Assembly: GCA_001606155.1 (NCBI GenBank)
Contig: LODT01000022.1
Span: 310,001-374,000, forward strand
Direction of reading: 5' to 3'
DNA from: Tieghemostelium lacteum
Lineage: Eukaryota > Evosea > Eumycetozoa > Dictyosteliales > Raperosteliaceae
Length of the DNA: 64,000 bases
This document shows, one piece after another, positions 28,172-34,500 of this stretch; position 1 is the stretch's first letter, and every line of letters starts with the position of its first letter. Made by a program: the position numbers and the translations under genes. A model generated the notes under the pieces. It was not told the origin of the DNA. It did not search any database and saw only the letters and a list, made by a program, of their open reading frames with translations.

Positions 28172-28525
28172 TTGTAATTTTCAAAGAAATATATCAATTT
28201 TTATTTTTTTGACTAGTTTGTTATAGGCTTTCCACCATGTAGTAAGTATATCTTTAGTCTGTTGTGTAAATGATTAGTTGTTTTGTAGATTGGAAACTAC
28301 CATATACAATTCTTGTGAGTGTGGTGAAATTTAATCTAGTTTCATTGATTGCAGATCGTGATATTAAACTATATATTGTGAAGTTCTAAAATTGAAAATA
28401 AAAAAAAAATATATTTTATTTTAATGAAGATATTTTTTTTTTAATGAATTTTTTAAACAAATTTTTTTTATTTTTAAATTAAATTAAAATCTCAACACAA
28501 ATATCTAATACCCTTGAAGGTATAA
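28172..28525. other. Intergenic, 354 bp, left flank of the transposon
   Basis: Very AT-rich, with long A and T runs near 28400-28480. Nothing coding seen. It ends in the TTAA that flanks the transposon at 28526-28529. Confidence 0.5.
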
Positions 28526-28529
28526 TTAA

Positions 28530-28576
28530 CCGTGGAAATCAGATATGTTTGTAGTTGTGTATAACTATACATGAAT
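28530..28576 (+). repeat. Left terminal inverted repeat
   Basis: Forty-seven bases starting CCGTGGAAATCA and ending ACTATACATGAAT; 44 match the reverse complement of the right end. Confidence 0.9.
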
Positions 28577-28620
28577 ATTTATTTAAATAAGTGAAAAGGT
28601 AATATAAACAAGAATGTAAT

Positions 28621-29801
28621 TTATTTTCTTCTTTTTGCTTTATCAATAGAATTAAGTGATAAGTTGTGATTTGGATTTACTACTCTTTCTTGAACATCAT
28701 TTTGTTCTCTATGATTTCTTGGAGGAGTTCTACTACTACTTCTACTTCTATTTCTACTTCTACTTCTACTTCTGCTTCTGCTGTGTCTATTTGGTATAGG
28801 TTCTCTATCTCTGTGATTATTGTTATTATTGTTGTTATTGTTGTGGTTATTATTATTATTTTGAGCTTGTTGAAATAATCTCATTAAATTATCATAATTG
28901 ATATTATTATTAATATTCATTTCTTCATCTGATTTTTCTTCAATAATAACAGCTATGCACTTTTGAAATCTAGAGGATTCAAGATTCTCAACTGTTGTGT
29001 ATTTTAAAGAAGGTTTCAGTTTAGGTAAAACATACTATATTTTAAAGATGGGATTAGTTTGACTTATAAGATTAAAATTAAAGGTTATAATATACACATA
29101 CACAATATTTTTCAATGGTACTATGCAATGGAAGACCAGAGACTATATTGATTATAACCTGAATATCTGCTTCAGTGTATGAAGAGTGTTCTGCTTTGAT
29201 GTAGAGTCTTTGGCTAGTTGTACCATCTGCATTTGTAATAGTTTCAATTCCTTTGTCCAAAAATTCACAAACTTTTTCACTGGTGTTGGTAAATATGAAC
29301 ACTATCATATGAGGGGTTTTAATTACTAATGGGTTGCCAAAATGGGTAGGTTTGGTCAATACAATATAATCTTCAGCTTTCATTTTTTTGGTATTTAGCA
29401 TTCTTTCCATAGCTGATAATTCTGGTAAATTTCTAGAGTCAGATTTGGAAGAGTGTTCATGAGATCTTTTGGAACTACTATTTTTAGTTTCCTAATATTT
29501 TAATTAATATTAATATTTACAGATTGACATTATATTATATTATTTTGAATACGTCTATACATACCTGAGCATTATTTAATTTTTTGGAATACCCAGACAG
29601 GCTCTGCATTGCTGTAGCACCTTTATCAGAGCTTGTGTTGGCTCGACATTCTTCAATTAGTTTAAAAATGGTCTCATCTCTATGATTAGATTGTGGGAAA
29701 TGAGACTTGAATTCATTTAAAACGTCATCATCTGCACCTGCATTACCTGTATGAAATAAACCCTTAACATAGTCTCTCTCAACTTTTGTGAAATTAACCA
29801 T
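28621..29801 (-). CDS. Transposon accessory protein (putative DNA-binding, Arg/Ser-rich tail)
   Basis: Three exons on the minus strand, 29801-29565, 29491-29102 and 29034-28621; 346 aa, all introns in phase 0. The start is the ATG at 29801; the open frame goes back only to a TTG at 29810. Residues 1-79 form a helical region (KVERDYVKGLFHTGN...VLNEFKSHFP...ETIFKLIEECRA) that could be a Myb/SANT- or trihelix-like DNA-binding unit. A central domain (about 115-210) is globular, followed by a poly-Asn tract and an RSRSRSRSR tail and a basic C-terminal KAKRRK, a likely nuclear signal. In PIF/Harbinger elements the second gene helps import and position the transposase; the same job here is inference. 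The family is not recognised directly. Confidence 0.7.
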
Positions 29802-30167
29802 TTGAAACAATTATTTTAAATATAGGAAAGATTGTATATTTAGTTAGCCAAAATTAATAATGAGTTGTGAAATAAATTTTCCCTAGTTGTGAAATTAAAT
29901 TACCTTTGTCAATATAATTTTCCTTTATAAAAGTTGGGAAATTTCCCGATTGCGTAGGTGGAATTCCCTGATTTTTTATTATTACTCTATAAATGTATCT
30001 TTTACAATAATAACGTATTCCCAAGTTTATTCCACACTCAAATTCCCAACTTTGGAAATTTAATAAATACTCGTGTGGTAAACAAACATGCCAAATTTTT
30101 TAATTAATTCGCATTTAAAAAATTAAAAAAAAAAAAAATGTATCTCAAATAGTTATATATTAATAAA
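29802..30167. promoter_or_regulatory. Bidirectional promoter between the two transposon genes
   Basis: 366 bp between the divergent start codons. It contains a pair of inverted segments, AAAGTTGGGAAATTTCCC near 29929 and CCCAACTTTGGAAATTT near 30046, which may be binding sites, and an A-run before the transposase ATG. No ORF. Confidence 0.5.
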
Positions 30168-31310
30168 ATGGTAATAATTAATGAAGAGGATCACAGACGG
30201 GTTTATGGAGTGTCTAGATCCACCAAAAGAAGATTACTTGAAAAATGTCAAAAATTAAAACCAACTATTACTCTTGTGCATTTCCAGGAGTTTCTTAAAT
30301 TTATCGTATCCAACCAATCTATGGTGACCCTTTCTGAAACAACGAATTATTCTCGAAAAACTGTAGGTAACCATATTTGGTCGGTAGCTTCTGCGTTATA
30401 TCTTATATCTGTGAAAAGTTTAGGTAAGGTGAGTAAAAAACAATTTTTTTTTTGTATTATTTAAAATTCACCATTTTATTAATTAAAATTTTAATCGACA
30501 GGATAACCAAAATCGTTACCAACTCAACAAAATTGACACCCCTTTAGGAGGTTTTGCTGCTGTTGCCATCGACGGGACAGCATGTCCAATAAAAAACCCG
30601 CTCAACAAACATGATAAGAAAGAATATTACAGCTATAAGCACAAAAACCACTGTTACAAATATATAGTTGGAGTTGGTTTGAGAACTGGTCTGGCAGTTT
30701 TCTTATATGGACCTAAAGCTGGGAGATATCATGATATCACACTTTTTAGAGAATCAAATTTGGTGAATAGACTGGATGCTGAAGAGCGTTTCATTGGAGA
30801 CAAAGGATTCCAATCAAATGAACTAGAAAGCAAAATTCTAACGCCAATTAAAGGAGACTTACTAAGTAGTGAGGATAGGATGTACAATTATGTTATAAAT
30901 TCCAACAGAGTAATTGTAGAAAATTACTTTTGGTCGTTTAAAGCGTTTTAAAATTTTGTCAACACCCATTTAAAGCCCCCAGATTAAAACACAAAACTGT
31001 GTTTACTATATGTGTATATCTCACGAATCTGGATATTAAAGAGAAACCGCTCCATGTAGATCTTCTCAAAAGTACTAACGAGTATTCAGGTCATAATGAA
31101 GATTTAGAAAGTGATTCTGAAATCTCTGATATGGATATTAGTGATGATGAATCAGTTACTAGTGGTGAATCTTTATCTAGTGAAGAAGATGAAGAAGATG
31201 ATGAAGATGATGAAGATGATGAAGATGAAGATGTTGAAGATGACGAAGATGATGATGAAGATGATTCATATGCAAGTGATGAGACATTATACTCAACTGA
31301 TGATGAATGA
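30168..31310 (+). CDS. PIF/Harbinger-like DDE transposase, 3' end frameshifted
   Basis: Exon 1 is 30168-30428 and exon 2 begins at 30502 after a phase-0 intron. Exon 1 has a helix-turn-helix-like region (TLSETTNYSRKTVGNHIWSVA). Exon 2 has the DDE_Tnp_4 signature: AVAIDGTACPI (first Asp), GRYHDITLF, FIGDKGFQSNE, and RVIVENYFWSFK (Glu). The frame stops at 30949-30951 just after VENYFWSFK, but the expected continuation is present in the other two frames: RFKILSTP, then FKAPRLKHKTVF and CVYLTNLDI. Two small indels at about 30940-30970 thus separate the core from the last helix. The final frame runs to 31310 through a long Asp/Glu-rich tail. The catalytic residues are intact but this copy is probably inactive. 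Confidence 0.75.
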
Positions 31311-31360
31311 TTTTTATATATAAATAAACATTTTACAGTTTAATACATAATTTAAACAAC

Positions 31361-31407
31361 ATTCATGTATAGTTACACACAACTTCAAACATATGTGATT
31401 TCCACGG
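31361..31407 (-). repeat. Right terminal inverted repeat
   Basis: Reverse complement of the left end with three mismatches; ends CCACGG directly before TTAA. Confidence 0.9.
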
Positions 31408-31530
31408 TTAAATCTTTTATTATGATATTTTAAAAATCTGAATTTTCAAAAGAATTAGGAGTTTGGTTAACTATTTAAATAAGTATGGTAATGAATAATT
31501 TACAAATCATTATCAATCACTTTTAAATAT

Positions 31531-34500
31531 ATGAATAACAAGTTTACTTTTTTATTTGTTATTGTGACTTTATTAGTATCCGTTGGATACGGAGGTGTGA
31601 TTAATAATGGGTTGGAGTTTATAGCATTGTCATTGTCAACTAATGAGGTTCAATGGAATACACTGAATATTCCATCAGTTACATTCAATTTTGGGTTTAG
31701 GTTCACTGATGCTGGTGATAATCTAGATGATTTTGATAATAGTGCTTTATTCTTTCCAGGTAGTGATACTTATTCCAATGTAATCTTAAGTATGTTGAAT
31801 GTTTACAATATCAGTGATGATAGAAAAATATTCTATATACAAGCATGTCTACCTATAACTACAATAGGTAACTGTAACAAGATATTTGGTACTGATCATG
31901 TTGACTGTGCTTACTATATGTCTATATACCACGGTCAAACTAGAGAATCTAAATTTACTAACAAGGAAATTGTTCAGGAATTCAAGAACTCAAGTATACT
32001 GAGAATCTATGAGAATTCAAAGTTACCTATTCTCACAGGTCTCCAATTGAATGTCTATCAGAATTTGGTAACCCTCATTATGCAAATAGAGTATTATGGT
32101 AGAGGTTTAAGTGAAATTGGTGTGGAAATCTATACAGCATCTGGTCAACTTTTAGTATATACTTTGTACTCATTCCAATATCAAATGGATAACTACTATA
32201 TTGAAACCATGTTTGATCCAATAGTTGATGGCTATAAAGGATATAGAATACATAATATCTATATAGATGATGCTGAAATCAACATTAACCAATACAATAC
32301 CTCTCAACTACATACCATGTTCAATGTATCCACATTCTCATTGCCAAAAGGTCAACCACCTACTAGGTACACATCACTGTTTACTCACAGTAATAACCCA
32401 TCAAACCCCAAAGTATCTCAAGGTGATACCTACACTATTGAAATGGCAGATGCCTATCTAAAATCCTACGATATTCCAATATATTGTACATCATACATTT
32501 ACAATTATTGCCAATTCCTACACATCAATTCAACATGGGTTAAAATCTATAATACCATTACACCATTTTACATGAATAATGCAAACACTGATACTCAATA
32601 TCAATCATCCACTGACTATGTTTCAACAATCGCATCAATAATTTCTCTCTATAAAAGTATGTATTTTTAACAATATTATCCATGTCATCAACAAAATTCG
32701 TTAACCTCTTTTTAAAGATGGTGATATGCCACCTAAAGTTAAAAAAATTCAATATTCAGTTTCAGAAATTTACCAATTACAACCATTCTATATTGAATTG
32801 AACTTTACAATTCAACTCCAGGATGCCTATGCTCAGTATTTTGAAATTACTGATCCAAATATTGATCCATTTTCAATTCTCCAATTGGTAGCAGGTAATT
32901 ATACCAACTCTGTTATCGGTACATATTTCCTATTTGATTCTTATAACCAGGATTTAACTGAATTTGATGTAATTATCAGAGATAGTAAATCTATTTCAAA
33001 TACTATACAGGCAAAAGGCCCACCAACAACTCCAAGAGACTACGTTAATGATTTGGATATAGAAATATTGGGTCAAATTACGGTATTCGATTTGACAAAT
33101 ACTACAGAAACTTCTATTCCTCTTATTATAAAGTCACATACTCAAAGTGGTGAAGATCAAATCCAAGGATTGATGCTAGGTAATGTTTATGGTAACTCTA
33201 TATTACCAGTTGGTGTAGTTGATTACAATGGTATTCAAAGTCAGTTCTTATACAGTGATAGTAATTATACACTATTCCAAACTTATTTAACTATAAGTGC
33301 ATACAATTCATTGAATATTTACTACCAAGGTGACTTTAATATAGTAATGGAATTTACAAATAGTGGTGGATATCTAAATTATTCTGCAATAACTTCAATG
33401 TGCTTTACCATTGTCCAACCTCCATTCCAACCTACCATTGTAACTTCATTGACAATGAGTCCATCCAATACCATCAATATCAATGAAACTAGTGAAATTT
33501 TGGTAAATATCCAGACTAAAGGTCAGATTGTAAATCAAGCTCAAATTGTGTACTACCAAAATGGAAACATTCTTAACTCTCCAACTAGTAATGTTCTTTC
33601 CAATTGTAATCAACCAACATACAGTTATTCTACCTTGGTTAGTGATATTTTATGTGTAATCCCAATTGTTGGTTTACTCGGTGTTGAAATATACCCATAT
33701 TTACAACTAACAGTTCAAGGTGTAGTTCAAACTGTATACAACTATCAATTACAAGAATCTGGATATCCCTCATTTATTTCAGTTCAAGGTCCTCCAGATA
33801 ATGGATTAGTACCTAATATTACCTATTTTGAAACCTCATTTAATTGGACAACCAATACCATTACTATTAACTATAATATTGATAATCAATGCCCCTATGC
33901 TGTGATGAATATCATCCAATTTGTTATTTTCAACAAACAAATGCCAACAATGCCATTTGGGCCAGGTACTGATCTAACAGTCACACAATCACAGTCAAGT
34001 GGTACATTTTCAATTGACCTTTGTAATCTTCCTGGATTTGCTTTTTGGTATCAAGACATTGGTATTTACATTAATATTCCAAGTTACTTCCCTAATGATA
34101 AGTCATACCAATTCCCATACATTTACTTGATTGAAATGGATCCTAATAATCAGTCATTCCCAATTAATCCATTAGGTTGTGATTTCTCTGGTCCTAGATT
34201 AGTCAATGTTGGTATATTAAACCCACAATCAGTTTATGATACAACCAACCAAGGATATTCAGTTACTCTATTCTACGATATCACCGATGATCTCACAGGA
34301 TTCAACAATCTCTTGGGTTCAATTAAACTAAAAGAAGGCGCCAATGAAGAAACTGGTGAGTTTTATATACAACCAATTCAGTTTAATGCTAGTGCTTTGG
34401 TTTCTGGTAATATTAGAAATGGAAGATACCAATTCACTATCCAAATACCACAGTACACTAATGGTACTTATGAATTCTCAATCTCCAATATCACTGATAA

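Follow-up and report, generated by a model that had tools for sequence, protein, structure and literature searches.

INTRODUCTION

According to the survey of Han et al. (2015, PMC4482050), the groups of PHIS transposons are defined by their target duplications, and one of them, Pangu, combines an ANT duplication with a DDE transposase and a second open reading frame (ORF) that has no known motif according to the Results of that paper; its Discussion contradicts this by crediting the second ORF of Pangu with Myb/SANT, and the function of the second gene in such elements is there called unknown. Here we describe a two-gene element from the dictyostelid Tieghemostelium lacteum, whose genome is reported to be particularly small (PMC5006619). 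It lies in a stretch of 64,000 nucleotides (the window; C19:310001-374000, contig LODT01000022.1 of assembly GCA_001606155.1), and the assembly to which this and all other contig labels refer was searched over its 23.33 Mb and 43 contigs. The copies found indicate a genuine cut-and-paste transposon that has moved recently, very likely of the IS5/PHIS type and Pangu-like by its ANT duplication. An earlier sequence-only reading of the window had proposed a whole DNA transposon at this position.

RESULTS

Once the target duplication is set aside, the element extends from 28527 to 31410, with AAT on either side (28524 to 28526 and 31411 to 31413). Its left terminal inverted repeat, which begins TAACCGTGG (28527 to 28572, plus strand), matches the right one (31365 to 31410, minus strand) at 43 of 46 positions, the stretch adopted here; the 47-bp inverted ends with 44 matches given by the sequence-only reading are recovered when counting starts at 28527, and at the left end the inverted similarity tapers off by about 28592, beyond the 46-bp stretch. 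Between the ends lie two genes in the divergent orientation already proposed, a transposase gene on the plus strand and a partner gene on the minus strand, their start codons separated by 366 bp (29802 to 30167).

Queries of 67 bp from the left and the right end each matched at least 25 places in the assembly, and the exact 16-bp end is present in 21 copies. Ten of the 25 left-query places are both ends of five two-ended copies: two of full length, the window element (copy A) and copy B at C19:218699-221581, and three short, internally deleted copies of ~1.38 kb at C24:781058, C26:1448-2829 and C34:647704-649086. Copies A and B are identical at 2863 of 2875 ungapped positions (99.6%), have unrelated flanks and are each surrounded by a matching ANT pair. 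The remaining 15 places have a single end only; one of them, on C38, is 99.8% identical to copy A over 995 bp and is truncated by the contig end, which leaves 14 more single ends, and the right-end query added one extra place, on C4. The short copies share 99.0 to 99.8% identity among themselves, against 82% to copy A, and by these figures they are a separate non-autonomous subfamily that is likewise recent; their ends are 89 to 91% identical to the window left end. The recent movement suggested from the window alone is thus upheld by a second full copy and further near-identical ones.

Twenty-five ends were displayed and 23 clean ones tabulated, leaving out the irregular ends at C2:246413 and C33:16466. 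TTAA occurs at every clean end and at neither of the irregular ones; at each of the 23, the three bases ahead of TAACC read ANT, the N being A in 9, T in 12, C in 1 and G in 1. On C24, the two less common forms ACT and AGT, complements of each other, sit at the left and right halves of a copy. Because the window A frequency is 0.35, the constant A at 23/23 ends is not attributable to chance (4e-11, a value that assumes independent ends; paired ends, and any copies that were duplicated along with their flanks, violate this). Across both ends, the duplications are reverse-complementary in four of the five two-ended copies (A, B, C24:781058 and C34:647704), and those at the two ends of C26:1448 do not match.

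Two flanks, the right one of C26:1448 and the left one of C34:647704, are adjoining halves of one gene-family repeat and were compared with empty paralogs of the site. With a single AAT between them, these halves agree with the empty paralog at C34:641k in 42 of 43 ungapped positions, and the same ANT join scores 39, 37 and 34 of 43 at three other empty paralogs (four of the six retrieved paralogs were scored). A TTAA join reaches 29 to 30 of 48 at these paralogs and 29 of 48 at the best site, and a join that treats the entire TTAA-to-TTAA unit as the insert reaches 31 to 32 of 44. At C24:781058, where the flanks are shorter and four of seven retrieved paralogs were scored, ANT is weakly favoured (23 to 24 of 31 versus 24 to 25 of 36). 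The TTAA is best read, from these alignments, as a composite in which the first T is the last base of the 3-bp ANT duplication and TAA opens the inverted repeat. The identical 4-bp targets of the sequence-only reading are therefore not a duplication, and since the ANT join sets the limits of the window element at 28527 and 31410, those proposed earlier (28526 to 31411) were one base too long on each side. The assembly does contain further copies and a paralogous empty site, which that reading had set as its own check.

Several copies showed irregular structures. Seven of the single-end places (L027, L028, L029, L030, L031, the second copy in L034, and L035) are 95 to 98% identical to a short copy; each keeps one end, their inner stop points differ, and the retrieved stretches contain no N runs. 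Two of these, C24:244428 (L027) and C24:301465 (L028), together make up one short-type copy, the former being its left and the latter its right half. They lie ~56 kb apart in opposite orientations, have ACT/AGT duplications that are complementary, and their flanks adjoin each other at the paralogous site C19:270.8k; either an inversion with a breakpoint inside the element or a misassembly would account for the pair. The short copies C26:1448-2829 and C34:647704-649086 are 99.8% identical and their outer flanks are apparently swapped, which ectopic recombination, or a misassembly close to the end of a contig, would explain. The copy at C2:246413 (L033) is inserted in a degenerate transposase fragment (DQLESEDRLY, from hand translation of the flank) that resembles the C33 gene described below.

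All splice sites given here are sequence predictions. The transposase gene consists of two exons (30168 to 30428 and 30502 to 31310) separated by an intron with GTGAGT...CAG borders (30429 to 30501), and the product of copy B has 355 aa. That protein matches PF13359 (DDE_Tnp_4) over positions 1 to 158 of 158 with E=6.3e-29, and the same family is matched by the window protein, spliced and read as far as its in-frame stop, with E=6.4e-21, which bears out the proposal of a DDE_Tnp_4-like transposase; similarity to the NCBIfam IS5 model NF033581 (5.9e-16) is under the curated cut-off of that model. The catalytic residues are D111, D187 and E227, with 39 residues between the last two (DD39E), and in the window their codons are at 30571 (D), 30799 (D) and 30919 (E); exon 2 holds the DDE_Tnp_4 domain and an acidic C-terminal tail. 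The frame of the window copy is disrupted past the catalytic E by two length differences of 1 base, located in short runs, that copy B does not have, so that this copy as assembled is probably non-autonomous, the break being either real or a homopolymer assembly error. The element is thus whole in having both ends and both genes, as had been claimed, but not in its transposase frame.

A DDE_Tnp_4 search of the assembly gave 10 matches, 9 of them above the family cut-off, including copies A and B and a gene on C33; the other loci above the cut-off are at C18:314.9k (L045), C28:1.8k (L046), C14:401.4k (L047), C11:1055.3k, C4:612.1k and C34:454. The C18 locus has an open frame that is missing the first catalytic Asp. 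The C33 gene (C33:798932-800488, L043) is a single-copy relative, 51% identical in the catalytic part, that encodes 492 aa, retains the DDE residues, has a long additional C-terminus and shares its intron position with the transposase of the element. Among 25 of the 28 inverted repeats listed in a stretch of 3.4 kb, no terminal-repeat-like pair was found, and its sequence is possibly that of a domesticated transposase gene. A scan of GTDB contigs, which detects close relatives only, confirmed no relative of the transposase.

The partner gene has three exons, on the minus strand at 29565 to 29801, 29102 to 29491 and 28621 to 29034, with GTATGT...TAG introns at 29492 to 29564 and 29035 to 29101; exon 3 includes the stop and encodes a poly-Asn and Arg/Ser tail terminating in KRRK. 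The spliced partner gene with such a tail that had been proposed is thus recovered. Its reading is open in both full copies, and fragments of it occur in many further copies. In Pfam, nothing reaches the curated cut-off and no Myb/SANT match was obtained (the best hit is Tim54, E=0.0021, 17.4 versus 34.7 bits), and the sequences of the PDB gave no match at E up to 5. Exon 1 alone is predicted to form an N-terminal domain of three helices (6 to 18, 24 to 34 and 42 to 55), with block means of the predicted local distance difference test (pLDDT) of 79 to 91 over the first 50 residues; the predicted fold has no significant structural match, only weak fold matches. These modelled helices are consistent with a helix-turn-helix DNA-binding domain, with which they are compatible without being proof of it.

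The 366-bp region between the two starts contains 8 GGGAA/TTCCC/GTGGAA/TTCCAC motifs where ~1 would be expected, a number reached by 0 of 2000 Markov sequences (mean, 0.97) and 0 of 174 window bins (highest, 6); because the motifs were selected after inspecting the region, the excess is a lead only. A 379-aa ORF at 31531 to 32670 of the window, starting ~120 bp past the right end of the element, matched nothing in Pfam at E up to 0.01.

DISCUSSION

Ends that look like TTAA can mask an ANT duplication, as in this element. TTAA is the target of the piggyBac and Kolobok superfamilies, and its presence at nearly all of the displayed ends would suit a 4-bp TTAA duplication, or insertion at TT|AA or T|TA|A. 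We regard this as highly improbable: the best empty paralog has no TTAA at the site, and the constant A two bases upstream of TTAA would be left unexplained. Membership in a TTAA-target superfamily was rejected on the comparison at that site (29/48 versus 42/43 for ANT). A canonical member of PIF/Harbinger, which targets TWA and has a Myb/SANT partner, would share the transposase family, the two genes and a 3-bp duplication, and the three predicted helices at the partner N-terminus would fit as well. Its duplication would have to be TWA, whereas AAT, ATT and ACT/AGT are found here; a TAA taken from inside TTAA would require the TTAA join that performs poorly at the empty site, and the partner lacks a Myb/SANT match in Pfam, so that we consider this identity quite unlikely. 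Since ANT occurs together with two ORFs, one of them of unknown motif, and the TWA and TTAA types fail, the element is filed as Pangu-like.

The partner could instead be a captured passenger or host gene, the transposase acting alone as in Spy elements. The partner sequence and the predicted exon 1 fold, neither of which has a significant match in the searches above, would agree with this; an open reading over three exons in both full copies and fragments in many others argue against it, as does the second gene that most PHIS groups possess according to PMC4482050. We therefore think a passenger unlikely and favour a partner that belongs to the element. In the mechanism suggested by the anatomy and by what is known of the family, the transposase would cut the element out at TAACC...GGTTA and place it into A-N-T trinucleotides, a stagger of 3 bases generating the 3-bp duplication; the ~1.38-kb copies were probably moved in trans. 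The Myb-like partner of Harbinger is reported to act in joint nuclear import and in binding of the ends (PMC9179366); by analogy, the partner protein, with its three-helix N-terminus and its Arg/Ser and Lys/Arg tail, may be a helper in end binding and nuclear entry of the transposase. More speculatively, and in our view rather unlikely as a whole, the element might represent a dictyostelid IS5/Pangu-like lineage with its own end sequence, whose partner, unrelated to Myb/SANT or YqaJ helpers, would also bind end-like GTGGAA/GGGAA sites in the shared promoter and so regulate both genes, while the same genome would keep several stand-alone DDE_Tnp_4 genes, at least one of them (C33) possibly domesticated. 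As a young, compact two-gene element, it could, in a laboratory amoeba, reveal the role of the second gene in such elements.

The sequence-only reading knew of no described dictyostelid element with this layout. The layout itself, two genes with a DDE_Tnp_4 transposase, is already known from PHIS; among the titles listed by literature searches on dictyostelid, Harbinger and Pangu transposons, none covers the element, and a catalogued family may exist in Repbase. The element probably belongs to an already described transposon group and is Pangu-like by its features. It shares with Pangu the ANT duplication, a DDE transposase without other domains that can be aligned across the catalytic region, a second ORF without a known motif (here, without a Pfam match at the cut-off) and a similar size (2.88 kb, compared with a Pangu mean of ~3.49 kb in PMC4482050). 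Two features depart from the usual Pangu pattern: the ends start with TAACC, where those of Pangu usually start with AG or GG, a usual and not a required feature in PMC4482050, and the near-perfect repeat of at least 46 bp exceeds the 11 to 40 bp given there for Pangu. Bacterial IS5 elements have the ANT target as well, according to the same survey, and the sub-cut-off similarity to NF033581 points in their direction; the introns, the second gene and the low-complexity tails set this element apart from them. PIF/Harbinger elements resemble it in their DDE_Tnp_4-type transposase, two genes and 3-bp duplication, and differ in their TWA target and probably in their Myb/SANT partner.

The host is the noteworthy part of the finding, because the Pangu hosts listed in PMC4482050 include no amoebozoan (neither "Dictyostelium" nor "Amoebozoa" occurs in its main text) and because the DNA transposases of Dictyostelium discoideum are reported to be unlike known ones. 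The D. discoideum elements Tdd, DDT and Thug are likewise dictyostelid class II elements, but their transposases are described as having no significant similarity to known ones (PMC5633606), whereas the transposase found here is clearly similar. A dictyostelid is outside the Pangu taxa of that list, and the T. lacteum element thus adds a host group beyond those listed in the survey to the IS5-like eukaryotic elements with an ANT target.
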